This document shows, in pieces, positions 123 through 28,984 of a stretch of DNA of 30,549 nt (position 1 is its first letter; every line of letters begins with the position of its first letter). The stretch is from the IMG/VR virus record IMGVR_UViG_3300006917_000098, positions 1-30,549 of that record. One strand, written 5' to 3'. The stretch is from a virus. The notes beneath the pieces are model-generated. The model was not told the origin of the DNA, did no database searches, and saw nothing but the letters and a program-made list of their open reading frames with translations. The translations under genes and the position numbers were made by a program.

Positions 123-971
123 TTATCCGATCATATCTAGTGGTGGTAGTTCATATGTATTGGACATTTTTTCCATAATAGAATCAATTTCTCTTTGTGC
201 ATCATCATATATTTGTCTGCCATTAAGCTCAACACCACCTGGAAGTTTTACTCCCTGGAACTTAATTAAATTCTGTCCCCATTGCTTTTTAATCAATGAT
301 GTCAAATACATTTTCAAGAAAGAGTCATTCCAAACTCTAGAGTAGTCATTTGGATCAAGAGATCTATAACAATCAATAATAATATAATCCCCAATGGATA
401 TACTTCCCCAATCAATATCCAGATATAATCTATCTTGACGTTTATTAAATCTAATTTGTTTTTGGGTAGTCAAAAGAAATTCTATATCTTCAAGATAAGT
501 CTTTGTCATTGCGTAAGTTAAAATTTCAGTTGATCCCCAATAATAAATGTCATTGAGGAATAACTGATATTTGACACTAAACATATTATTTGTTGTTGTA
601 TTAGTGCCATCAAAATGATATATTTTTGTTACCCCAATTACCGATGGTGGTATTTGTAAGTAATTACTATTCTCTTTATATGTAAATGTCGTTGCTGTAC
701 CTACAATATTTGCCGTTGCTGTTGTTGTTGCTATTCCTGCAGTTGGTGATTTTCCGTTAGGTGCTTGTCCTCTATTAATATCATCTTGTGTTACTTGATA
801 TTTTAAAAATACTTGCCCAACACCATCAAAATGTCTTTCTTGAAAGAATTGAATAGCATCATCAACTAAATCATCTATTTGTTCTTCCGCAACATTAATC
901 TCCAATACTGGCGCACCAAGTTTTCTCTTACAATAATCTATTAATTCTTGCCTAGATGCTGGTTGCGCCAT
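123..971 (-). CDS. gp13: Neck protein gp13 (head completion)
   Basis: This 282-residue protein matches the cyanophage form of T4 gp13, which pairs with gp14 to make the neck between portal and tail. The N-terminal block (about residues 6-45, with CKRKLGAPVLEINV and DDAIQFFQERHFDGVGQ) is the recognisable family signature; T4 gp13 is about 309 residues. Residues about 70-100 form a low-complexity Thr/Ala/Gly stretch (GIATTTATANIVGTATT) that looks like an inserted loop. The ATG at 971 is supported by an AGAGGAA ribosome site about 8 nt upstream and by a late-promoter-like box at 990-996. gp14 follows immediately. Confidence 0.92.
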   Translation of the reverse strand: MAQPASRQELIDYCKRKLGAPVLEINVAEEQIDDLVDDAIQFFQERHFDGVGQVFLKYQVTQDDINRGQAPNGKSPTAGIATTTATANIVGTATTFTYKENSNYLQIPPSVIGVTKIYHFDGTNTTTNNMFSVKYQLFLNDIYYWGSTEILTYAMTKTYLEDIEFLLTTQKQIRFNKRQDRLYLDIDWGSISIGDYIIIDCYRSLDPNDYSRVWNDSFLKMYLTSLIKKQWGQNLIKFQGVKLPGGVELNGRQIYDDAQREIDSIMEKMSNTYELPPLDMIG

Positions 972-999: not shown

Positions 1000-1170
1000 T
1001 TACTTTAACATTGTAGAAAGAACTTCTTGTTGCTTCATATAAAGTTTCATATATGCCTTAGATATATTTCGTAAGTCTTCAATATCATCTATGGCATCTA
1101 TTTCAATACAAGCTTTAGCATATTCAAAGTTTTTAGATAAATTTTCTAATTCTATGTCATTTGGATTCAT
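1000..1170 (-). CDS. Small conserved cyanophage-type protein, 56 residues, unknown function
   Basis: A complete short gene reads MNPNDIELENLSKNF at its start and ends KLYMKQQEVLSTMLK. It is predicted to be largely alpha-helical, acidic in its first half, with no membrane segment. Its start lies inside the last codons of the upstream 75-residue gene (14-nt overlap, different frame), which suggests translational coupling. It fills the space between that gene and gp13 almost completely. I recall similar short acidic helical proteins with a KLYxKQQE tail in T4-like cyanophage structural blocks, but know no function. A role in neck or head-tail joining is only inferred from position. Confidence 0.75.
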   Translation of the reverse strand: MNPNDIELENLSKNFEYAKACIEIDAIDDIEDLRNISKAYMKLYMKQQEVLSTMLK

Positions 1171-1384
1171 TTACAAGACTCCTAAGTAAAAATTTAATTT
1201 CATTCAAATCATCTTTCATATTAGCAACATCAGATTCCAAATTTTGTATCTTTTGATTCTCTTCAATTTTTAGTTTTTTTCTAGAAACATACTCTTGATA
1301 TTCCGACATATTTGTATTAATTATTGAGTTTGTATTTGGATCACGAATTAATCCATCATAACCTTTTACTCTTATGTAATCCAT
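1157..1384 (-). CDS. Small coiled-coil protein of the neck/baseplate block, 75 residues
   Basis: The protein begins MDYIRVKGYDGLIRDPNTNS and ends in a heptad-like helix (residues about 35-72, EENQKIQNLESDVANMKDDL) that looks like a coiled coil. A TTG at 1399 would add five residues and overlap the upstream gene; I chose the ATG at 1384 because it starts one base after the TGA of the DUF4815 gene (TGATATG), a typical coupled junction. Short proteins with this N-terminus and a coiled-coil tail are common beside neck genes in cyanophages. It could be a virion component; T4 has the fibritin gene wac at this map position, but no sequence similarity to fibritin is visible. Confidence 0.8.
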   Translation of the reverse strand: MDYIRVKGYDGLIRDPNTNSIINTNMSEYQEYVSRKKLKIEENQKIQNLESDVANMKDDLNEIKFLLRSLVNESK

Positions 1385-1385
1385 A

Positions 1386-4300
1386 TCAAGCAAGTGCAAT
1401 AACTCTCAAGTCTTTAATTCTTGGAACATAAACTTGATTTGTTGATGTTGCAACAATTTTAATTCTATAATTTCTAAATGATGGAAGATTATCTGCAGTA
1501 AATGAATACTCCTTAAAATCTAAGAAATTGGATTCAAACTTAAGAGATGATGATGGAGTAATAAATTTATCAGGTCTTCCATCACTATCTTCCACCGAAA
1601 TTATTTGTGATCTGAAATCTAAATTCATGTATCCTGGGAATGGTACAAATATTGGATCAAATCCAGAATTTTCACTAATTGAATAGAATGCTCTTATATC
1701 ACAATAAGAATTAATATATGCATTTAAAATTAATTTTAAGGAAGTTGCTGGAGATTCTAAAGATATCTCTTTAGAAATATATTGGAATGCTGTTGGGTCA
1801 TCTAAGATTGAATTTGGTCTTGCATCGGATGCATAATTAGAAATTGCACTATTAACTCTATTTGAAGTTAAAATTGCACTAACACGTTGTGTATCAATAA
1901 CCGGAGAAAGATATGTATTAGATGTATCCAATCTCAATCTCAAATTCATTGATTTATTACCTGGAACATTTTGTAAGTTATTTTCTTCATTAACTATAGA
2001 ACAAACCATTCTTGGAGATGTAAAATAATTTGGATTGTTTATTGAAATATTTTCAAACCCAGCATCTACAAAAGGAATTTCATTTCCACTAATACTCTTT
2101 CCAGTAATTGTTCTAATTTCAGAACTTATAGATGTTCCTTGTACAGTTAAGTTTTGAACGATTGGGGTTATAATTTCAAATGGAATATTTTGAGTTGCTT
2201 TTATTGAATATCCTCCACTAGACTTTGTTTGCTTTTGATATAGATTTTGATATCCAATTCCAGAAGATCTATCAATACCATCCGAAGACATATCAAGTTT
2301 AATGTGATAATAATCAAAGTCAACTGCATTTTCAATTGTAACATCATTCAAATCATGTGTTTTATTGATTCTTCTCAGTGAAACACCATTATTTTCATAC
2401 TTATAAACTCTAGATCCTATTGGGTAGGTTAATGGATTTAATCCTCTTGTTATATTTCCACCTATAACATTTCCAGAAACTGAGGTATATTCAATAATTT
2501 CGTTACCTATTTTTAAATAACCTGGATTTGTAGTACCAACACCAACCCCCTCAAAAGTTCCAAATTCTGATGCATTATCTACTGATATAGATCCATTTGA
2601 ATCAGAATCATAAGAAACCGTTAGTTTTGTTGGGTTAATATCAGATTCTACATCAGATATAGCAACAAAATTATTTTCCGAGTACATTCCATGATTTTTA
2701 TGATTAACTTTAATATGAAGACCATCACTTTCGGTAATTATTTCATCAATATAAACTCCTCCACCAAGAGATGCATTAAGATCTGTAGTTATTCCAGAAT
2801 TGTTCACATATCTAATTGTATTGGATGAACCAACAATAAAATCACCTTGAACATTATCAATTATCAATTGATTTGTATTTGCAATTGAAACTATAGTAAA
2901 TCTTGCGTCTCTACCAACAGTTATAGATCCTAATGAGGTTATACCTACAGTATCTCCCACTTTATATCCATTTCCACCGTCAACTATAGTTGCGGCAATT
3001 GCCACTCCATTCCTTACCGTAACGTTAGCAAGAGCACCTAAACCATTACCTGTTACTCTTGAAAGAATTACATTACTATAAGTTAAAGAACCAGATGATG
3101 GTGTATATCCAATTCCGGAGTTGGTTATTGTAAGAGAACCAGTTGCAATACCAGCACTTCCAACGTAATTTCCTGTAGCACCTGAACCAAATTGTGTAAT
3201 TGTATTGCCGAGAGTTAAATTTGGATCATTAATGGTAGATGCTAAACTTACTCTTATTTTCTTTGAATTAAAATTCAATGAATTTGGTAAAAGTTTTGCA
3301 ACTTGACCATTACCTTCAGATAGTTGTGGACTGTAGAATTCAACAGATCCATTTTCAATAAAGTTTGCTCTATAAAGAGTAAATTTCAGATCTTCCCATT
3401 GACTTGGCTCCCATGTTGAAGCATTTTGTGATTTAAATAGAGAACCCAGGTATGGTTGGTTCGAAATAAATGTCTGAGTTATTAAATCATTTTCACCAAT
3501 TCTGGATATATAAACACTGTATTTTGTTGAATTGGATGCCAAACATATGCAATATTCCTTTCCACCTTCCAAATAAATTGGAGCTTTAAATTGAATATTT
3601 GTTGCAACACTTCCATCACCAGATGTATTAACTTCACCTGGTTCCAACACAATTTCTGAGAAAGGAATAACATTCTGGGTTGGGAACCCACCCTGCATTG
3701 TTCTTAATTGGAAAGTTACTGGAATATCAGCATCATCTTTTGATCTAAAGAATACATCACAACTTGTTAGAAATACTCCGGTTTCATTATCAACCAGGAA
3801 AGATTGGGCGAGAGGATCATACCAACCAGTAATTCCTTGTCTTTGAGTTTGGGAAATAACTCTACTGTTAACAAGTTGACTTCCTGTTGTTCTAGAAACT
3901 GCTTGCTCTTCAAAAACTTGTTTATTTTCAATTCTAGCGTTTCTAACCGAAATAATATTTTCTTGAACCGTTTCTAAGGTTCCACTTGAGGTAAATAACT
4001 CTTCGGCTATTGTAGTTGCCAAATTCTGATCATTAGTATTATCATTTACAATGGTGAAAGACTTTGTTCCTGCTTCAAATCTTGGATGAATATTTAGATT
4101 TGGATTTGGAATGTAGAAGCTTCCTATTAAAGTTGCAGATAAGTCAGAAACTAATCTTACATTACTAATTGATGCTTGGGCTTGACTTGTCTTTCCAACA
4201 AGAATCATTCCTGGTTCTACCCAACCACTAAACTCACCTTGCGGTGCGTTAGATAGTGAGAACGTATCAATGTTTAATATTGTAGATGTTGAAGAATATG

Positions 4301-7300
4301 ATTCTGGTAAAATTTGAGAATTGTATGGGTTTTGTGAATATGTGGATGATGGTACATTATATGGACCTTCCTTATGATTTGCTTGAGCAACTCTAAATGT
4401 TATTTTAGCCGAAACATCTTCAGTTCCTTGACCAAGACCTGTTGCTTGAACATATCCGGTAACGGTTTCTCCTACCTGGAAAACTCCAGACAGCATGGAA
4501 ATTTCGAGTAATTTTGGAATACAATATTTTGTTACGTCAACTCCATCAAAGAAAGCATACAGTTGAGTAAGAGGTTTTACTTTTTTAGAAACAAATTGAA
4601 CGTTTCTAGATCTCATATATGGAACTAGATCTCTACTTACAACTCTATCTCCAACTGAAGTATTATCAAATTGTTCAGTAATTATTGTTTTAGTTCCTGT
4701 TCTTGTGTTAACTCCAACGTCTCTTACTTCCGTGTAAGTATCTTGGAAAGTGGTATCAGTTACTGTTCCCCATCTTGCCACTCTTGCTGTTTGTTGTGCA
4801 TCACCAAGCACAGTTCTTGTTCTAGTTGTTGTTATTACCTCTTGACCGGTCCAATTAGTAACCCAAGCATTCCATACTGTTGGGGCAAATCCAGTTTGTG
4901 GGTCAACATTCAATGTTCTTGCAGCGTTTGCAAGTGTTTCTGCATAATTTCCTTCTGTATTAATAATTTTTGCTTCAATTCTTGTAGTATCAATCCAAGT
5001 ATCAGTTGCTGGAGTTAATTCGACTGTTCCTTGCCAGAAACTAATTAGGAATGGTGTTACACTCTCCGATCTTGTTGCGAATGATTGCTTTAACCATTCA
5101 ATTTCTGCATAGTCTAAGGTTAAAATATCTCCTGTTTTTCTTACATTTATTCCTTCTACTGGTTCAAATGCAAGATCTGCATTCGGATCGACACCAACTA
5201 TTGGACCTTCTATTAAATCAATAGAAGTTGTATAATGCCTTGGTCTTAACTCTTTAGTTTGGATATCAATGCTATTTTTTATTGGTATTCTATCTTCTTG
5301 TGGTAAGAAAGATGAGAAATTATCAACAAAGAAACCAGATTTAAATCTATTCAATCCATCTGAATCTGGAACAAATAAATTAGATGTATTTGTTTCCAGT
5401 AGAGAAAGGGTCGTGTAATACTCTAAATTTTTAATTCTATTTTCAAGTTGCTTAATATCAACCATTCTATATCTCTTATGCTCTAAGAATTCTATAGAAG
5501 CTTGAGATGGTGAATACAAATAAGGTGGTAAAGATACAGTTGCAATTTCTAAAGAATCGTCAACTGAAACTGGTTTTTCTGGTTTTTCTGCTGGAGTTCC
5601 ATATTTGACCTGAATTTTACCATCTTTTCCTAGATAAATTCTATCTATTCTTCCCAAATAGAAGGAAAAAGTAGTTAAAATTGTCTCATCAGATGCTAAA
5701 ATGCTTGTAGAAGAATTTTCAGTTGAATTAAAGGATCTACCATAAAACTCTAGAGGGGAACGAGAACCTTCGGAAAGGCTATACTCAGAAACTCTAGGTC
5801 TGATATCAAAAATATCAGTTACTCTTGTTCCATCAATAGATGGTATTTCTAAAGAATAATCAAATGTATTATAGGAACTTGCGGTTGTGATATCTCCATC
5901 ATCAGTAGAGTCATAATATCCACTACTGAAATAAACTTTTATTTTTTTGCTTGGCTCAGAAACAGTAGATTTTCTAGTTAAATAACCATGGGAGTAACTT
6001 GTTCCAGACTGTCCATTATTAAAAGTGTAATTAAATGATACATCAAAACTTGAAGTTTCTAAAGTAACAGATTGTGCTTGAATTGCACTTTCTCTGAAAG
6101 ATATAATTTCACCTTCATTGAAAGTATTTTGATTCTTATAAATGAAAGAAATTTGAGACGCAGTTAATTTTTCTGCAACAATTGCAATAGCTCCACTGGT
6201 TTGTCCAACCATTTCTTCACCAATAATTAATTCTGAAGTCGTTGAAGATGGGCTTGTAATAGAAGCGAGAACAACTTTTGGTGGAGATGGATCTGTAGTG
6301 TCTGCGGACTCATAAATGCCGTGTATTTCAATAATATCTGGTGTGTTCAAAGAAATATTTTCATCTTGAACTCTAGTTCCGTATGGATAATCTCCATAAG
6401 TTAATCCATCGTCTAAGGTTGTAGCACCAATTCCAGAACTTTCATATTTTGAGTTATTAATTAGAAGGGATTTTACTCTGTTCTTTCTTTTTATCTTTGA
6501 TTTTGGATTAACTTTTTCCAGCGTTGCGATCAAAGTTGCACCAGTATCATTAGATCCAAGATTATAAATTTGTAATTGTGTGCCTCCACCAATGAAAGCA
6601 AACATATCAGATGTTAGTGTTTCAGTAGTTCCATCAGATCTAATTAAAGAATATCTCTCAATATCAAATGCAGAGAAAGTCTCATTTGTTCCGGCAACTA
6701 GATTTGTTGATAGTTGATTTCCGGAAATATTTACTGTAAATGTTTTTCTAATTTTTAAAATTGAATTTGATATCTCAACACTAGAAACATTAGTTTTTGG
6801 TAATTTTGTGTATAATGTATTATCTTGTGATGACTCTAAATTAGTTCCAATTACCTTTAAGTCGGTAACTTCTAGAGATGATGAAGAAGGTAAACGTGAA
6901 GAAGTTATTCCCGATACAGTTTGAATATTAGTAACCTCTATAGAAGTAGTGCCAATACTAACAATTCTAGCAAAAACTGGATCTGGAAGTGTAGTATCTG
7001 TATAAGAAACTAGATTGTTTTTAAATAATCTATTAGTTCCAGGGAATAAAGAATTTGCTGGTCTTATTGTACTTGTTAAGAGGGGATTTGATATTATAAC
7101 CTCATCTCCACTGACTAATCTAGAAATTCTGGAAAAAGTTACAGCAGTTCCAGTTATCATTGAAGATACATTTGTAAATGTAACTGCAGTTCCAGCAGCA
7201 ATGGAAACGTTAACAGTATTTCCAGTTCCAATATTAAAGAAAGTATCTCCTACAGAAACAACTCTTACATTTGTTAATGCAGCTCCAACAGAAACCGAAC

Positions 7301-9575
7301 TTATTCCAGATACAAGTCCTGTAACTATTCCAACAAAAATTGAAGAAGATCCAGCACCAACAGTCGAAGTAACTGTTGTTTTCAATTGTGAATTTGATGT
7401 TGAACCAGATGAAATTACAACAAAAGTATTACCAACTGCCACAATAGGGGCTGATGTCAATCCAGTTCCAACAGTAATACTACTACCAATTGTAACTCCG
7501 TTTGGTATTGTATTAACATAAATTGTAGCAGAACCAAAACCAACTGTCGTTGTGATTCCGGAATTTATCGTTGAAGTTATTCCAATGGAGTCAACGTTAC
7601 TTGAATTTATTACAATAAATGTGCTGCCTACTGAGACTATTGGTGCGTTAGTTATTCCTATTCCATTTATTTCGCCAGCAGTAATAGAATTTCCTATAGA
7701 AATTGATGTATTATCAATTCCATTTGCACTATATTGAGTCGAATCTAAGTAAATAACTGTAGAACCGACTCCGACTGTATGTGTTATTGATGTTCTGAAT
7801 AATTCTTCATTTCTAAAATAAGTTTGAACACCAACAGTTGCAAGTCCGATAAAACCATTTGACAATGTAGATTGAATTACATCAGCATTGAAAGTATTTG
7901 CTGCACCGACTTTTCCATATACTGATTTTACGTCTGATATTCCATATGCAGTTACTGCTATGCCTATTAAACCAGACTCAATTCCATTGAAAGATAAAGA
8001 TTCATTTGGAATAAATTTTCCTTTGACATCATATAAAGTTAATGATTTACTTGAAGAAACATTATCCTTTAAAAATCCAGATGCTCCACTATTATTACCT
8101 TTTACATAAGTTGGGAATGATAAAGTTGTTTCGTAGTTTAAATATATTTTTGTGAATGGTTGGATATCAAAAAGAGAAACATGCCATTCATTTAAATTTT
8201 TGTTTGATGAGTTGTATGAACCAGATTCTAATTTAAAATCATAAACTCTTGCTAAACCGATTTCAGATCCAGATGCCGTTATTCCTGAAGATCCTACTCT
8301 TTGGTCTCTTAAACTAAGAACAAAAGTATTTCCGAGACCAACTTGGGGAGTTCCATAAACTCTATTAAGTCTAAATGTTGGACCTGTGTTATAAACTAAC
8401 GATTGGTTTTCTAATGTTTTTGTTGTTCTTGGTTTTTCAACATCTAAAAATGTTGAAGAAATTAAATCTACCTCATATCCTCTAACAAAAGCTTTTCCTG
8501 GTGAAATTTGATATAGAGCTAAATTGTCACTTGGAGTTGCTCCACCATATGTAAATTGACCTCTGTTAAAAATACCACGATTTCCTTTATTATTGTTTAA
8601 AGAATCTTTTACGGATATGTCGAATGGAGAAACTATATAATCTCCAGATTCTGAGTATGTTCTTCTAGCTAGTTCGTCTGCAATTAGATTATACGCAGTT
8701 GTAGATTGTTTTGTACGTATTGCACCATCTACAATTGTTGCAAGTTCAATAAAATTATTATCATCAAAATCAGTTAAACTCTTTTTAAACAGGAAAGTTG
8801 ATATTTTTAGTCTATCTGCTCCTGGAGCAGCATAGTTATTCTCTCCTTGAGAATTATCTGTTAAAGATTCGTCAATATCTGGTGTTATTATTTGTTCATC
8901 AATAAAAAGACCAACTCTATAATTTGGTCTGTTAGAATACTGATCTAAAATTAATGTCTCAGTACTTACATTTACAAAATTACCACGAATAAAATATACA
9001 CCCTCAGATATATTGAAAGAAGATCCAACTGCTGCAGCACCACTAGATAAAGTGATTGCAAAAGGTTCACCTGCTTGTATAGTTGTATTTCCTAAAAGAC
9101 CTGATGTAATTGTAATATTGGATGTTAAAATCTCACCATCTGAAAATTGTTGAGTTGAATTATTTTGCGTATTTGAATTTAGATAATTAATATATAAGGT
9201 TAAATTTCCTCTTTCTGAGTCTTGAGGTAAAAGAATTTTATCTACTACAGCAGTGACGCCAGAAGTTCTGCCAGTTATCTTTGCTCCAACTAATTGATCG
9301 GCATATGCAGATACTGGAACTCCAAGGTAATTATTTTGTAATTGAATGGCATAGTATATGGCATTATATCCAGTATTTCCTGGTATAACTTTTGCCCCTT
9401 CTTTAAAAAAGTGTTGACCAAATCTTTCAATCTGATTCTGTAAAATAGACTGTAAAGTTGTCAGTTCTCTCGCTTGTACTGGATATCCTGGCTTAAATAG
9501 GACCCTATGATAATCATTATTAGGATTAAAGTCATCGAAATACGGTGCTACATTGAGATTTGTTTGCTGGGCCAT
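1386..9575 (-). CDS. Giant DUF4815-type virion structural protein, probably baseplate or tail fibre
   Basis: At 2,729 residues this is the second giant gene. The N-terminal ~80 residues (YFDDFNPNNDYHRVLFKPG, then GYPVQARELTTLQSILQNQI and GQHFFKEGAKVIPG) match the DUF4815 family I recall from cyanophage structural proteins. Residues about 599-795 hold three imperfect 60-75-residue repeats starting TVGxGS. Around residues 1370-1400, RYRMVDIKQLENRIKNLEYY is a family-typical helical segment. Around residues 1910-2060, DPLAQSFLVDNETGVF and EGGKEYCICLASNS belong to a module common in phage tail-tip proteins. A GxGY repeat lies near residues 2130-2210. The gene follows gp8 by 6 nt and sits where T4 carries genes 9-12, so it probably supplies the outer wedge or fibre-attachment parts; that is inference. 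No Shine-Dalgarno is obvious. Confidence 0.82.
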   Translation of the reverse strand: MAQQTNLNVAPYFDDFNPNNDYHRVLFKPGYPVQARELTTLQSILQNQIERFGQHFFKEGAKVIPGNTGYNAIYYAIQLQNNYLGVPVSAYADQLVGAKITGRTSGVTAVVDKILLPQDSERGNLTLYINYLNSNTQNNSTQQFSDGEILTSNITITSGLLGNTTIQAGEPFAITLSSGAAAVGSSFNISEGVYFIRGNFVNVSTETLILDQYSNRPNYRVGLFIDEQIITPDIDESLTDNSQGENNYAAPGADRLKISTFLFKKSLTDFDDNNFIELATIVDGAIRTKQSTTAYNLIADELARRTYSESGDYIVSPFDISVKDSLNNNKGNRGIFNRGQFTYGGATPSDNLALYQISPGKAFVRGYEVDLISSTFLDVEKPRTTKTLENQSLVYNTGPTFRLNRVYGTPQVGLGNTFVLSLRDQRVGSSGITASGSEIGLARVYDFKLESGSYNSSNKNLNEWHVSLFDIQPFTKIYLNYETTLSFPTYVKGNNSGASGFLKDNVSSSKSLTLYDVKGKFIPNESLSFNGIESGLIGIAVTAYGISDVKSVYGKVGAANTFNADVIQSTLSNGFIGLATVGVQTYFRNEELFRTSITHTVGVGSTVIYLDSTQYSANGIDNTSISIGNSITAGEINGIGITNAPIVSVGSTFIVINSSNVDSIGITSTINSGITTTVGFGSATIYVNTIPNGVTIGSSITVGTGLTSAPIVAVGNTFVVISSGSTSNSQLKTTVTSTVGAGSSSIFVGIVTGLVSGISSVSVGAALTNVRVVSVGDTFFNIGTGNTVNVSIAAGTAVTFTNVSSMITGTAVTFSRISRLVSGDEVIISNPLLTSTIRPANSLFPGTNRLFKNNLVSYTDTTLPDPVFARIVSIGTTSIEVTNIQTVSGITSSRLPSSSSLEVTDLKVIGTNLESSQDNTLYTKLPKTNVSSVEISNSILKIRKTFTVNISGNQLSTNLVAGTNETFSAFDIERYSLIRSDGTTETLTSDMFAFIGGGTQLQIYNLGSNDTGATLIATLEKVNPKSKIKRKNRVKSLLINNSKYESSGIGATTLDDGLTYGDYPYGTRVQDENISLNTPDIIEIHGIYESADTTDPSPPKVVLASITSPSSTTSELIIGEEMVGQTSGAIAIVAEKLTASQISFIYKNQNTFNEGEIISFRESAIQAQSVTLETSSFDVSFNYTFNNGQSGTSYSHGYLTRKSTVSEPSKKIKVYFSSGYYDSTDDGDITTASSYNTFDYSLEIPSIDGTRVTDIFDIRPRVSEYSLSEGSRSPLEFYGRSFNSTENSSTSILASDETILTTFSFYLGRIDRIYLGKDGKIQVKYGTPAEKPEKPVSVDDSLEIATVSLPPYLYSPSQASIEFLEHKRYRMVDIKQLENRIKNLEYYTTLSLLETNTSNLFVPDSDGLNRFKSGFFVDNFSSFLPQEDRIPIKNSIDIQTKELRPRHYTTSIDLIEGPIVGVDPNADLAFEPVEGINVRKTGDILTLDYAEIEWLKQSFATRSESVTPFLISFWQGTVELTPATDTWIDTTRIEAKIINTEGNYAETLANAARTLNVDPQTGFAPTVWNAWVTNWTGQEVITTTRTRTVLGDAQQTARVARWGTVTDTTFQDTYTEVRDVGVNTRTGTKTIITEQFDNTSVGDRVVSRDLVPYMRSRNVQFVSKKVKPLTQLYAFFDGVDVTKYCIPKLLEISMLSGVFQVGETVTGYVQATGLGQGTEDVSAKITFRVAQANHKEGPYNVPSSTYSQNPYNSQILPESYSSTSTILNIDTFSLSNAPQGEFSGWVEPGMILVGKTSQAQASISNVRLVSDLSATLIGSFYIPNPNLNIHPRFEAGTKSFTIVNDNTNDQNLATTIAEELFTSSGTLETVQENIISVRNARIENKQVFEEQAVSRTTGSQLVNSRVISQTQRQGITGWYDPLAQSFLVDNETGVFLTSCDVFFRSKDDADIPVTFQLRTMQGGFPTQNVIPFSEIVLEPGEVNTSGDGSVATNIQFKAPIYLEGGKEYCICLASNSTKYSVYISRIGENDLITQTFISNQPYLGSLFKSQNASTWEPSQWEDLKFTLYRANFIENGSVEFYSPQLSEGNGQVAKLLPNSLNFNSKKIRVSLASTINDPNLTLGNTITQFGSGATGNYVGSAGIATGSLTITNSGIGYTPSSGSLTYSNVILSRVTGNGLGALANVTVRNGVAIAATIVDGGNGYKVGDTVGITSLGSITVGRDARFTIVSIANTNQLIIDNVQGDFIVGSSNTIRYVNNSGITTDLNASLGGGVYIDEIITESDGLHIKVNHKNHGMYSENNFVAISDVESDINPTKLTVSYDSDSNGSISVDNASEFGTFEGVGVGTTNPGYLKIGNEIIEYTSVSGNVIGGNITRGLNPLTYPIGSRVYKYENNGVSLRRINKTHDLNDVTIENAVDFDYYHIKLDMSSDGIDRSSGIGYQNLYQKQTKSSGGYSIKATQNIPFEIITPIVQNLTVQGTSISSEIRTITGKSISGNEIPFVDAGFENISINNPNYFTSPRMVCSIVNEENNLQNVPGNKSMNLRLRLDTSNTYLSPVIDTQRVSAILTSNRVNSAISNYASDARPNSILDDPTAFQYISKEISLESPATSLKLILNAYINSYCDIRAFYSISENSGFDPIFVPFPGYMNLDFRSQIISVEDSDGRPDKFITPSSSLKFESNFLDFKEYSFTADNLPSFRNYRIKIVATSTNQVYVPRIKDLRVIALA
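7190..7778 (-). repeat. Three imperfect 60-75-residue repeats inside the DUF4815 protein
   Basis: Three consecutive units begin TVGVGSTVIYL, TVGFGSATIYV and TVGAGSSSIFV. Each continues through a Gly/Ser/Thr-rich stretch to a second strand motif: APIVSVGSTFIVI, APIVAVGNTFVVI and VRVVSVGDTFFNI. The units start near 7778, 7546 and 7362. The copies have diverged in length and sequence, so this is an old protein-level duplication, probably of a small beta domain. Boundaries are approximate. Confidence 0.7.
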
Positions 9576-9581
9576 AATTCT

Positions 9582-11132
9582 TTAGAACTGCAAAATGACT
9601 TTAATATCTTCTTTTTGGTTTGATGACCTTGTAATTGCGGGTCTGTTGTCAACGTAAATAATATTTCCCGAATGTCTTTTTACTTCTGGACTTGAAACTC
9701 CATTAGAAAAAGTCTGACCAAGGTAGTAGGTTCTATTATTTATTACGGTAGATATACCAGTAAAAGTACTGTCAATGGTTAAATTTCCTATAGAACCACC
9801 GGAAATAGTCAACGAACCACCCGTTCCAGGTGAGGATGTAAATTCAGTTAAATCAAATCCATAAGATGGATTTGTTTGTGCTGTTCCAACAGTACTAAAT
9901 CCAGCAAGAGTTCTATCTTGCCAATATTTTAAAACGCCTGTTGTTTGATTATAACTTATAACCCTACCTACTGCTGTTGTTCCAGTGGAAACTGTTTGCG
10001 TAATAAATGAATCTGAAGTAAATACTGCCGAATTATATCCAGTTCCAGTTAAACGAAGAGCATTAACCGCACTGGCTCTATCTGAAGTTAAAAGAGTTCC
10101 GGTAGTTACTTCTGGATTTTCTACAATTCCAATTCTAGAAATTTGGTTTCCAGTAATAAAATCTGGATTTTCATTATTATTCTCTATTCTGGAATAAAGT
10201 AAAACATTATATGCACCAAGTTCTCTGTAAATATCATACCCATGACCACCTTTTGGTGAAATAATTACATCAAAAGTAGGTCTAGTTGTTCCAGTTGGAA
10301 CATTTCCCGCATCTAAGTCAATATTTGCATAGGTATACCCAGAACCTTGATTTGATACTGTTACGGATTCTACTTCCTGATCATTATTAATGACTATTGT
10401 ACACTCAGCACCACTTCCGTCACCTTTGATCGGAACTCTTGTATATGTTGTATTTGCTGTTCCTAATCCAACACCTCTATTTGTAATAGTTACTATTTTT
10501 ATTGATCCATCTTGGGCATTTCCTCTTACTGCCGCATTATCTGTAGAGGTATCCCAATTTTGAGGAACTGGGATGAAATCAGTTGCTTCAAATTTTACTA
10601 CGTCAACTGGTTTAATTGTATATAAGTACTTCCATATGTACCCATCACCACTTGAACCTGCTGCTCTCGGTTCTAAGTCAGTAAAAAGTGGTTCATCTAA
10701 AGATGGTTTTCCATTTGGAGTTTCCGGAGTTGTTCCATTTTGGAGACAGATATAAACTCTGTACTCACTATTCATTACAAAATAAAAAGATGAATATAAA
10801 TTTGTTGCACCAGAAACTTTAGCAGTATTTGTTCTGCTATAGTCGTGGCGATACATATCGTAAGTATTTCCTGAAGTCCAAACTCTCTTTGGAACCACTT
10901 GGCGAACATCTGAAGAGTTAATTTTCTTCAGAGCAATCATTGTATCCCAATAACTGTTTTCTTCATCAAAATTATCTTTTGGTGCAGGGGGACTTTCATC
11001 CCAATCAGTTTGATAATCAGTAGAATTTGGTAGACCTATAAAAGTATAATAAGAATTAGTTGAGGATTCTACTCCAGCAACAAAATTCTTAGCATTTAAT
11101 ATTCTGATTTGATCAGTTATAATCGCAGCCAT
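9582..11132 (-). CDS. gp8: Baseplate wedge protein gp8
   Basis: This 516-residue protein is a gp8 homologue. Its last residues (KRHSGNIIYVDNRPAITRSS then EDIKVILQF) align with the C-terminus of T4 gp8 (RHSGEMIYMENRPPI ... EEINILFTF). VVPKRVWTSG and the GDGYIWKYLYTI block (about residues 163-174) match the corresponding T4 positions. T4 gp8 is 334 residues; the extra length comes mainly from a central insert (about residues 205-460) with GxGY beta-repeats (SNQGSGYTYANIDLD). gp8 dimers build the inner wedge with gp6, gp7 and gp10 in T4. The ATG at 11132 has no clear Shine-Dalgarno but is preceded by a late-promoter-like box; it is followed after 6 nt by the DUF4815 gene. Confidence 0.92.
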   Translation of the reverse strand: MAAIITDQIRILNAKNFVAGVESSTNSYYTFIGLPNSTDYQTDWDESPPAPKDNFDEENSYWDTMIALKKINSSDVRQVVPKRVWTSGNTYDMYRHDYSRTNTAKVSGATNLYSSFYFVMNSEYRVYICLQNGTTPETPNGKPSLDEPLFTDLEPRAAGSSGDGYIWKYLYTIKPVDVVKFEATDFIPVPQNWDTSTDNAAVRGNAQDGSIKIVTITNRGVGLGTANTTYTRVPIKGDGSGAECTIVINNDQEVESVTVSNQGSGYTYANIDLDAGNVPTGTTRPTFDVIISPKGGHGYDIYRELGAYNVLLYSRIENNNENPDFITGNQISRIGIVENPEVTTGTLLTSDRASAVNALRLTGTGYNSAVFTSDSFITQTVSTGTTAVGRVISYNQTTGVLKYWQDRTLAGFSTVGTAQTNPSYGFDLTEFTSSPGTGGSLTISGGSIGNLTIDSTFTGISTVINNRTYYLGQTFSNGVSSPEVKRHSGNIIYVDNRPAITRSSNQKEDIKVILQF

Positions 11133-11531: not shown

Positions 11532-12500
11532 TTAATATTCTATTATAATAGCGCCCTGTTGTCCATTTTGGCTGCTCTTTCCACCAAGACCATAACCACT
11601 AAGTTGTGGAGTCACTACTGATGTATTTTGGTAATCTGTTTCAGTAACAGATCCACCATAAAGATTTACCTGACCACCAAGAGCAATTTGTACGTCATTA
11701 TTAGTTCCTTTTCCACCAACTCCAGTGATAGCCACACCAACATAAGTAAATGTAGTATTACCACCATCAGTGCCATTTCCACTAGCAGTTCCTATTCCTC
11801 CAGCTCCTATTGTGTATGACGCTGAAGTACCTGGAGTAACTTGATAATATCTAATTGCAGTTGCTCCAGATCCACCATAGATTCTTATATATCCAGATAA
11901 ACCTCCTCCTCCACCACCACCTGTTGCATATACTTTTATTAGTCTAACTCCAGTTGGTACTGTCCAAGATGTTCCTGAGGTTAAAGTTTGATATGTACTA
12001 AACCCAATATATCCAGTTCCTGCAGACAATGAAAAGTTTGATGCAGTTATAATACCACTAGTATTAATACTTGAAGTGGATCCTAATCCTACTGCTATTG
12101 TGGCAATACCTGCAGTACTTGCATAAGTTGCTATTCCGGAACTAGAAGAATAAGTTGAAATACCAGCAGTACTTGAATAAGTTGCAATACCTGCAGCATT
12201 TGCATATGACGAACTTGTTGCATTACCACTAAAAGATGTAGCCGTAACAACACCAGAAAATAACCCATTACCAGAAACAGTCAATTTTGATGTAGGATTA
12301 GTAGTTCCAATACCAATATTAGAAAGTGTGTTAACACCAACGGAAGTTTTATTTAAAACACCAGAAGTTAAATCATTACTATTTCCAAAATAATTATATA
12401 TTTCATTGAAATTACTATTAATTTTAATCGCACCTTCTAATAAAGTATCTCCAAGATTATCATTAGGTGATACGCCAGTAATTATTCCTAACTTTGCCAT
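11532..12500 (-). CDS. Tail-fibre protein with glycine-rich C-terminal adhesin domain
   Basis: The 322-residue protein has three zones. Residues 1-40 (GVSPNDNLGDTLLEGAIKIN) form an attachment-type N-terminus I recall from cyanophage fibre genes. Residues 63-92 (GIGTTNPTSKLTVSG ... VVTATSFSG) match the shaft motif of phage fibres, followed by 9-residue repeats (103-138). Residues about 175-322 form a glycine-rich domain: a WTVPTGVRLIKVYATGGGG entry strand with seven glycines at 194-200, many GG pairs, and a closing GAIIIEY strand. Such domains form the host-contact tip in other fibres. No S74 peptidase chaperone domain is present; the next gene is chaperone-like instead. There is no clear Shine-Dalgarno, but a late-promoter-like box is nearby. 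Confidence 0.8.
   Translation of the reverse strand: MAKLGIITGVSPNDNLGDTLLEGAIKINSNFNEIYNYFGNSNDLTSGVLNKTSVGVNTLSNIGIGTTNPTSKLTVSGNGLFSGVVTATSFSGNATSSSYANAAGIATYSSTAGISTYSSSSGIATYASTAGIATIAVGLGSTSSINTSGIITASNFSLSAGTGYIGFSTYQTLTSGTSWTVPTGVRLIKVYATGGGGGGGLSGYIRIYGGSGATAIRYYQVTPGTSASYTIGAGGIGTASGNGTDGGNTTFTYVGVAITGVGGKGTNNDVQIALGGQVNLYGGSVTETDYQNTSVVTPQLSGYGLGGKSSQNGQQGAIIIEY
12102..12194 (-). repeat. 27-nt tandem repeat coding a 9-residue unit in the fibre shaft
   Basis: Residues 103-133 of the fibre protein read as AGIATYSST, AGISTYSSS, SGIATYAST and a partial AGIAT. The period is nine residues (27 nt). The unit suggests an intertwined beta shaft; repeat number may vary between related phages and change fibre length. 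Confidence 0.8.
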
Positions 12501-28072: not shown

Positions 28073-28220
28073 CTTTAATTTCCTCCAGTTCAATTAAATT
28101 AGGATCAACATCTTCACCCGAGAAAAAACGCTCAGAGAAGTCTTGAAGAATCTCACTACATTCTTCTGCAGTGAGATTCATATAAATTTTACGTCCTTGA
28201 TAAAGTACGTTATAGATCAT
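28065..28220 (-). CDS. Small hypothetical protein, 51 residues
   Basis: The gene starts MIYNVLYQGRKIYMNLTAEE and ends in an acidic tail (NLIELEEIKDG). An upstream in-frame start at 28271 would lie inside the glycosyltransferase gene; I chose the ATG at 28220 because it overlaps the upstream stop by one base (TGATG), the classic coupled arrangement. The protein looks like a short beta hairpin followed by a helix (LTAEECSEILQDFSERFF). No function is known to me. Confidence 0.82.
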   Translation of the reverse strand: MIYNVLYQGRKIYMNLTAEECSEILQDFSERFFSGEDVDPNLIELEEIKDG

Positions 28221-28984
28221 CAGATAATACGAGTTTTTTCGTGCCCAACGCGAATACGAGGATCGCACCAAATCTCAAAGCCTGCCTCTTTTGCATCAAG
28301 ACAGAAACTTACATCTTCTCCACACATATCCTGAACATTGCCAGATTCAAAGACTTGCATCTTTGGAGCAAACCAAGGATACTCAAGATTCTCAAAGACT
28401 CCATTCTTAATCAGAACCCAACCAAATCCAGTGTAATCCACTGTGAAAGGCTTTCTACGCTTGGAGATTGAATCCACGGTTTCATGATTCATCACACCAC
28501 CGTTCTTACGGAAATCATCCTCTTCCAACCAGTGTGCGACAGAAGTTGTGTGACCATCCTCAGTTGCATACCAACCTGCGACAACTTCACGCTCAGTACC
28601 ATCTTCACTGAGAGCTAGATCACAGAGTTGCCAAAACTTGTTTGTATCAAAAACAATATCACTATCAATCCAGAGTTGATAATCATATTGTAGTTTTCCA
28701 TCCCAAGGAATTTGCTTCGGTCCACGGAGAACATTTGCTCCAAGACACTTACAACGTGCAAAGTTAACCATTGAGGAATAGTCTTGCGAGATCTGAATAC
28801 TCATACCATTCTGTACCATATCAAAGCACAGTTGTACAAAGTTCTTCAGAAAAATGAAAGAACATCCTCTACCAGGTAGACAGAAGACAATACTCTTTCC
28901 ACGCATTCTTTCTTTAATTTCATCAATATCCCATTCTTCTTTGGGTTTTGGTGCTGCTGCTTTAACAGTAAATCCTTTTGCCAT
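28220..28984 (-). CDS. Glycosyltransferase family 2-like protein
   Basis: The 254-residue protein has a GT-A layout. A first strand SIVFCLPGRGC (31-41) is followed by a helix; LWIDSDIVF (104-112) supplies the Asp-x-Asp metal/nucleotide-sugar motif (D107, D109); VVAGWYA follows (134-140); and GEDVSFCLDAKEAGFEIW (222-239) with a later VGHEK is typical of the acceptor-side GED region. Residues 1-20 are Lys/Pro-rich and likely disordered. Similar enzymes are frequent in cyanophages; targets may be virion proteins, DNA bases or host sugars, which the sequence does not show. It is preceded by a near-consensus sigma-70 promoter and leads an overlapping four-gene run. Confidence 0.85.
   Translation of the reverse strand: MAKGFTVKAAAPKPKEEWDIDEIKERMRGKSIVFCLPGRGCSFIFLKNFVQLCFDMVQNGMSIQISQDYSSMVNFARCKCLGANVLRGPKQIPWDGKLQYDYQLWIDSDIVFDTNKFWQLCDLALSEDGTEREVVAGWYATEDGHTTSVAHWLEEDDFRKNGGVMNHETVDSISKRRKPFTVDYTGFGWVLIKNGVFENLEYPWFAPKMQVFESGNVQDMCGEDVSFCLDAKEAGFEIWCDPRIRVGHEKTRII

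Follow-up and report, generated by a model that had tools for sequence, protein, structure and literature searches.

A giant DUF4815 protein in the gp9-gp12 position of a T4-related cyanophage locus, probably a peripheral baseplate scaffold of the phage 812 type

Phage T4 carries gp9, gp10, gp11, gp12 and fibritin (wac) between gp8 and gp13, in agreement with the original prediction on the present locus, which had set these genes between gp8 and the neck genes. In the Ackermannviridae gp9-gp11 and gp12 are described as missing, and VriC has been likened to baseplate proteins of A511 and phi812 (PMC11721090). Sullivan et al. 2010 listed gp7, gp10 and gp12 in the non-cyanophage core (PMC3037559). 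Another study compared 35 genomes of cyano- and pelagimyophages, found VrlC in every one of them and predicted a two-layered baseplate with VrlC replacing gp7 (PMC7029224). The idea of a replacement is not new, the gene swap being common to the examined cyanophages and partly published. We found no baseplate structure of a T4-like marine cyanomyovirus in PDB searches or in the literature examined. The baseplate of Staphylococcus phage 812 presumably has RBP-carrying arms, and the exact place which we assume for its DUF4815 chain is taken also from the entry titles.

The window, i.e. the whole stretch of DNA analysed, is a record of 30,549 bases (IMGVR_UViG_3300006917_000098) which is itself a fragment, and genes were read only within it (Table 1). 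A single DUF4815 protein of 2,729 residues had been claimed and was indeed found, as one minus-strand open reading frame matching PF16075 (DUF4815) with 190.8 bits against a cut-off of 30, and covered end to end (residues 1-2729) by positions 1-2055 of the 2056 of phrog_358, a cyanophage family profile. This frame starts 6 nt past gp8 and, together with two tiny ORFs, fills the place between gp8 and the gp13-like adaptor, also as predicted. The 4,070-aa gp7-type giant gave no sequence match in the PDB search, and its hhalign alignment with T4 gp7 (89%) extends over 32 residues only. A further ORF of 254 aa at 28220-28984 matched phrog_1574 (E=8e-117) and, weakly, a glycosyltransferase family.

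Table 1. Features of the 30,549-base window, in their order along the minus strand
Feature	Position	Strand	Evidence
Baseplate wedge gp25, 133 aa	26670..27071	minus	PF04965 E=1.5e-16
Baseplate wedge gp6, 641 aa	24742..26667	minus	PF21379, PF21387, PF21871; phrog_219
gp7-type baseplate wedge giant with YHYH domain, 4,070 aa	12525..24737	minus	phrog_2885 baseplate wedge subunit; PF14240 E=1.7e-22
322-aa fibre (probable)	11532..12500	minus	PF07880 and PF21722; phrog_677; PDB T4 gp9, 9f4a gp9/gp10
Tail-fibre assembly chaperone-like, 115 aa	11174..11521	minus	PF16778 E=4.5e-10; phrog_4912 tail fiber assembly E=7.1e-18
Baseplate wedge gp8, 516 aa	9582..11132	minus	PF09215 E=1e-17; phrog_438 E=5.8e-169; PDB T4 gp8 chains
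DUF4815 / VrlC protein, 2,729 aa	1386..9575	minus	ORF; PF16075 E=4.5e-56; phrog_358; PDB 9euf relative
Variable repeat-like insertion, ~residues 571-850 of the DUF4815 protein	7026..7865	minus	low model confidence
Tiny ORF 1, ~75 aa	~1157..1384	minus	read from sequence; no Pfam match
Tiny ORF 2, ~56 aa	~1000..1170	minus	read from sequence; no meaningful Pfam match
gp13-like neck protein (head-tail adaptor Ad2)	123..971	minus	phrog_211 E=2.5e-49

The closest tblastn relatives of the DUF4815 protein were those of Synechococcus phages S-SM2 and Bellamy (~60% identity), while similarity to relatives at the DNA level was patchy. S-SM2, Bellamy and SynMITS9220M01 share the order gp25-gp6-gp7-gp8-DUF4815-small ORFs-gp13, and the annotation of S-SM2 names the DUF4815 gene VrlC. 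Since the distance from gp8 to DUF4815 did not exceed 60 nt in any of the 256 viral loci with both genes (median 6 nt), the layout is not peculiar to the window. DUF4815 matches were noticed in 1,541 phage records, including phages of Staphylococcus, Salmonella, Bacillus, Vibrio, Enterococcus and Listeria. In Twort the order is BmpA (gp25 family), BmpB (baseplate J), TmpF, BmpC and TmpG (DUF4815), followed by RBP genes, and the gp25-gp6-gp7-gp8-DUF4815 order of the window resembles this series from BmpA to TmpG; in Kuttervirus FEC14, VriC has tail-spike genes on one side and gp13 on the other. In one locus (L021), what looked like a DUF4815 match of 11 kb turned out to be an ordinary frame of 2,494 residues, upstream genes having been drawn into the match range. 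In S-SKS1 (L090, NC_020851) the DUF4815 frame looks split at ~125,000-126,300, with open frames of 286 aa and 2,169 aa and no CDS annotated there, possibly through a frameshift or a sequencing error.

Furthermore, we compared the giant with proteins of solved structure. A phmmer search of the PDB returned a single significant sequence, a 1,152-aa DUF4815 chain (u161488, E=1.7e-48) which occurs in 15 entries including 9euf, the baseplate of phage 812, and its matches run from residue 6 to 2081 of the giant. Structures were predicted (AF2) for slices 1-1150 and 1640-2729, with 127 slices aligned for each, and in profile searches with both slices the phage 812 DUF4815 chain alone was significant. 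Mean pLDDT was 72.5 for slice 1-1150, with values below 50 at 587-830 (the insert), and 84.7 for slice 1640-2729 (pTM 0.76). Foldseek against the PDB at E<=0.001 gave three matches per slice, all of them phage 812 baseplate chains covering pre- and post-contraction states, with best E-values of 2.1e-10 and 3.9e-12, respectively. Homology to the chain in 9euf, 9eui and 9euj was found by sequence and by Foldseek alike. TM-scores to this chain were low (0.12-0.20) because the multi-domain chains fail to superpose as wholes, and the fold claim is therefore drawn from alignment E-values only and not from global superposition.

The giant exceeds its 1,152-aa phage 812 relative in two regions, ~900 residues standing against ~135 from residue 398 to 1295, and ~650 against 200 past residue 2081. 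The insertion at 571-850 showed a gap fraction of up to 0.93 across 63 relatives, and the 560-880 stretch ranged in length from <10 to ~380 aa across 216 relatives. The insertion is repeat-like (VGxGSTxI). A few relatives have ~313-383 aa in this stretch (compare L006, L007, L008, L009 and L030) against ~70-90 aa in most, and other, different glycine-rich expansions of the protein were noticed in L198 and L238.

We also asked which members of the peripheral T4 set are present. In profile searches, gp11, gp12 and full-length gp10 were not found in the 30,549-base window. By the same kind of search, which a distant structural relative could escape, the GP11 family and phrog_910 (gp12) gave no match in any of the ten complete records with DUF4815 that were examined (S-SM2, Bellamy, SynMITS9220M01, P-TIM68, S-SKS1, S-PM2, S-RIM2, Melnitz-1, FEC14 and Twort), and Gp10_C gave none in 12 (the same ten, S-CREM2 and S-SM1), while T4 has all three. 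DUF4815 itself was present in 11 of 12 records searched, T4 being the sole record without it. The gp9/gp10 N-terminal domain was present in T4, S-RIM2, P-TIM68, Melnitz-1 and the window, and S-SM1 has an annotated gp9 with this domain; the profile search did not find it in S-PM2, S-SKS1, FEC14, Twort, S-SM2, Bellamy or SynMITS9220M01. The earlier statement that the window holds no recognisable gp9-gp12 thus stands for gp11, gp12 and full-length gp10, but has to be amended for the 322-aa ORF with its gp9/gp10-type N-terminus.

This 322-aa protein, encoded two genes upstream of gp8 with the 115-aa chaperone-like gene next to it, combines a gp9/gp10-type N-terminal anchor at ~residues 5-60 with a glycine-rich C-terminal domain. 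Its match to phrog_677 has E=2.8e-15, while that to PF07880 spans only ~55 of 175 positions and scored 28.9 bits in a six-frame search (cut-off 25) but 21.8 bits in hmmscan. Sequence matches in the PDB were limited to T4 gp9 and, within 9f4a, to the gp9-type and gp10 chains (E=0.004-0.013), and hhalign with T4 gp9/gp10 gave 92-94%. The gp9/10 C-terminal domain (PF23618) was absent from the protein in hmmscan, and PF21939 (Gp10_C) was absent from the window. Among 57 loci with a visible gp7 end, 39 have <200 nt before gp8 and 18 have more, and all 18 of the latter carry a gene with the gp9/gp10-type N-terminal motif. A wider search returned 26 ORFs with the motif, 121-1026 aa long, of which 25 lie between gp7 and gp8. 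The slot genes, noticed in the window and in loci L030, L037, L073, L102, L103, L106, L121, L123, L127, L129, L140, L151, L158, L160, L163, L164, L089 and L093, share this conserved motif of ~50 residues and have bodies of widely differing length, so that the gp7-gp8 interval is, as judged from sequence, an optional slot for a constant putative anchor with a variable body.

Evidence on the virion comes from relatives. S-CREM2 gp124, which sequence comparison identified as the DUF4815 orthologue (DUF4815 E=7.4e-57), stands at the top of the virion proteome table with 450 unique peptides and is listed there as hypothetical (PMC10665884). Taking unique peptides as a rough guide to copy number only, gp124 has 16.9 per 100 aa, compared with 18.1 for ORF121 (gp6-position), 11.0 for ORF123 (gp8-position) and 4.7 for ORF122 (gp7-position). 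VriC is likewise among the five most represented virion proteins of Sajous1 (PMC10892097). Fibre genes occur beside DUF4815 as well. In S-CREM2 a short fibre with a Collar domain is encoded two genes past DUF4815, and S-PM2 and S-SKS1 have Collar-domain frames elsewhere in the genome, so the presence of DUF4815 does not preclude a gp12-like domain. The original prediction that the giant replaces tail pins and short fibres is thereby upheld in part: the complete DUF4815-bearing records examined gave no gp11, gp12 or Gp10_C match, but separate fibre genes persist, the probable 322-aa fibre of the window with its chaperone-like neighbour among them. Since they persist, replacement of the gp10/gp11 scaffold fits better than replacement of the fibres, and DUF4815 more plausibly takes over that scaffold role.

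Combined together, these observations identify the giant as VrlC/DUF4815, a baseplate protein known from T4-related cyanophages, and make it probable that it serves as a peripheral arm scaffold of the phage 812 type. Its shared position with gp9-gp12 on the chromosome might instead suggest a fused, diverged descendant of these T4 proteins, but we give this hardly any credence, as the DUF4815 family, when compared by hhalign with T4 gp9, gp10, gp11, gp12 and wac (single sequences on the T4 side), reached a probability of <=1.6% against 100% each for Twort TmpG and FEC14 VriC, and neither slice of the giant found a T4 baseplate chain in Foldseek at E<=0.001. The likeness to T4 gp10-gp12 for which a profile comparison had been proposed was accordingly not seen. 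That VrlC stands in for gp7 in the wedge is the published proposal for cyano- and pelagimyophages (PMC7029224). We regard it as improbable in this detail, since the window has a separate gp7-type giant between gp6 and gp8 (phrog_2885), whose counterparts in S-SM2, Bellamy and SynMITS9220M01 are annotated as gp7/baseplate wedge initiator, and hhalign of DUF4815 with T4 gp7 remained at background (0.1%).

On the other hand, the giant could itself be a receptor-binding fibre or adhesin, as the variable repeat-like insertion would favour and as the annotation of homologues as 'receptor binding protein' (Listeria phage P100plus), 'tail fiber protein' and 'adsorption associated tail protein' would have it. 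Such annotations are no tests, however; dedicated fibre/RBP genes accompany DUF4815, and the C-terminal part of the giant keeps 50-85% identity to its relatives in every 50-residue bin, unlike typical receptor-binding tips. We therefore consider an adhesin unlikely, though less so than the two readings above.

For the window virus we infer the virion location and function of the giant from its relatives. As an arm scaffold, the giant would be a beta-rich multi-domain protein lying outside the gp6-gp7-gp8 wedges, where it would carry or position separately encoded fibres and relay to the wedge the signal that these have bound, and would so fill the role of T4 gp10/gp11 without being homologous to them. 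The 322-aa protein with its gp9/gp10-type anchor is probably one such fibre, with the 115-aa chaperone assisting its folding. We put forward tentatively, with chances a little short of even, a hybrid baseplate for marine T4-like phages, in which a T4-type inner wedge (gp25-gp6-gp7-gp8) is joined to Herelleviridae-type DUF4815 arms replacing gp10/gp11/gp12, and the optional gp7-gp8 slot, gp9/gp10-anchored, allows swapping of adhesins. A DUF4815-docking motif in the C-terminal tail of gp8, shared with Herelleviridae BmpC, was also considered after a weak BW3TFN match, and was rejected because this tail is found on T4 gp8 as well (hmmsearch E=1.6e-09), in a phage that has no DUF4815; the gp8-tail profile gave no significant BmpC match. 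The motif common to T4 gp8 comprises the last 35 residues of gp8 (window 9585-9689). Twort BmpC has a loosely similar C-terminal end (BW3TFN) and might be the Herelleviridae counterpart of gp8.

If the arm reading is true, Kyanoviridae, Ackermannviridae and Herelleviridae, with very different hosts, share one outer baseplate scaffold, the peripheral set of T4 is the exception in this comparison, and structural biologists are pointed to the host-recognition layer of cyanophages. The genes of the slot, with their gp9/gp10-type N-termini, would make up a small set of candidate adhesins for phages that infect abundant marine cyanobacteria.

Among known systems, the Kyanoviridae VrlC of S-SM2, Bellamy, S-SM1 and S-CREM2 is the same gene in the same place past gp8; S-SM2 and Bellamy, however, have no additional fibre gene in the gp7-gp8 interval, and most VrlC relatives have a shorter 570-850 region than the window giant. 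The 322-aa neighbour has the N-terminal anchor motif in common with T4 gp9/gp10, but has neither the gp9/10 C-terminal domain nor Gp10 C, carries a glycine-rich part at its end and is encoded before gp8 and not after it. Ackermannviridae VriC (FEC14, 1,584 aa) aligns with the giant's family over almost its whole length and is immediately followed by a T4-like gp13-gp20 block, but is shorter and neighbours a tail-spike cluster instead of gp8. ORF65 of phage 812 and TmpG of Twort (Herelleviridae) are homologous to the giant in the N-terminal, middle and 1915-2081 regions, belong to a baseplate that has been solved, and are encoded after the wedge genes and before the RBP genes. They differ in having 1,152 aa against 2,729 aa, the giant carrying two long insertions or extensions, in the Gram-positive hosts of these phages, and in that the neck genes do not come next.
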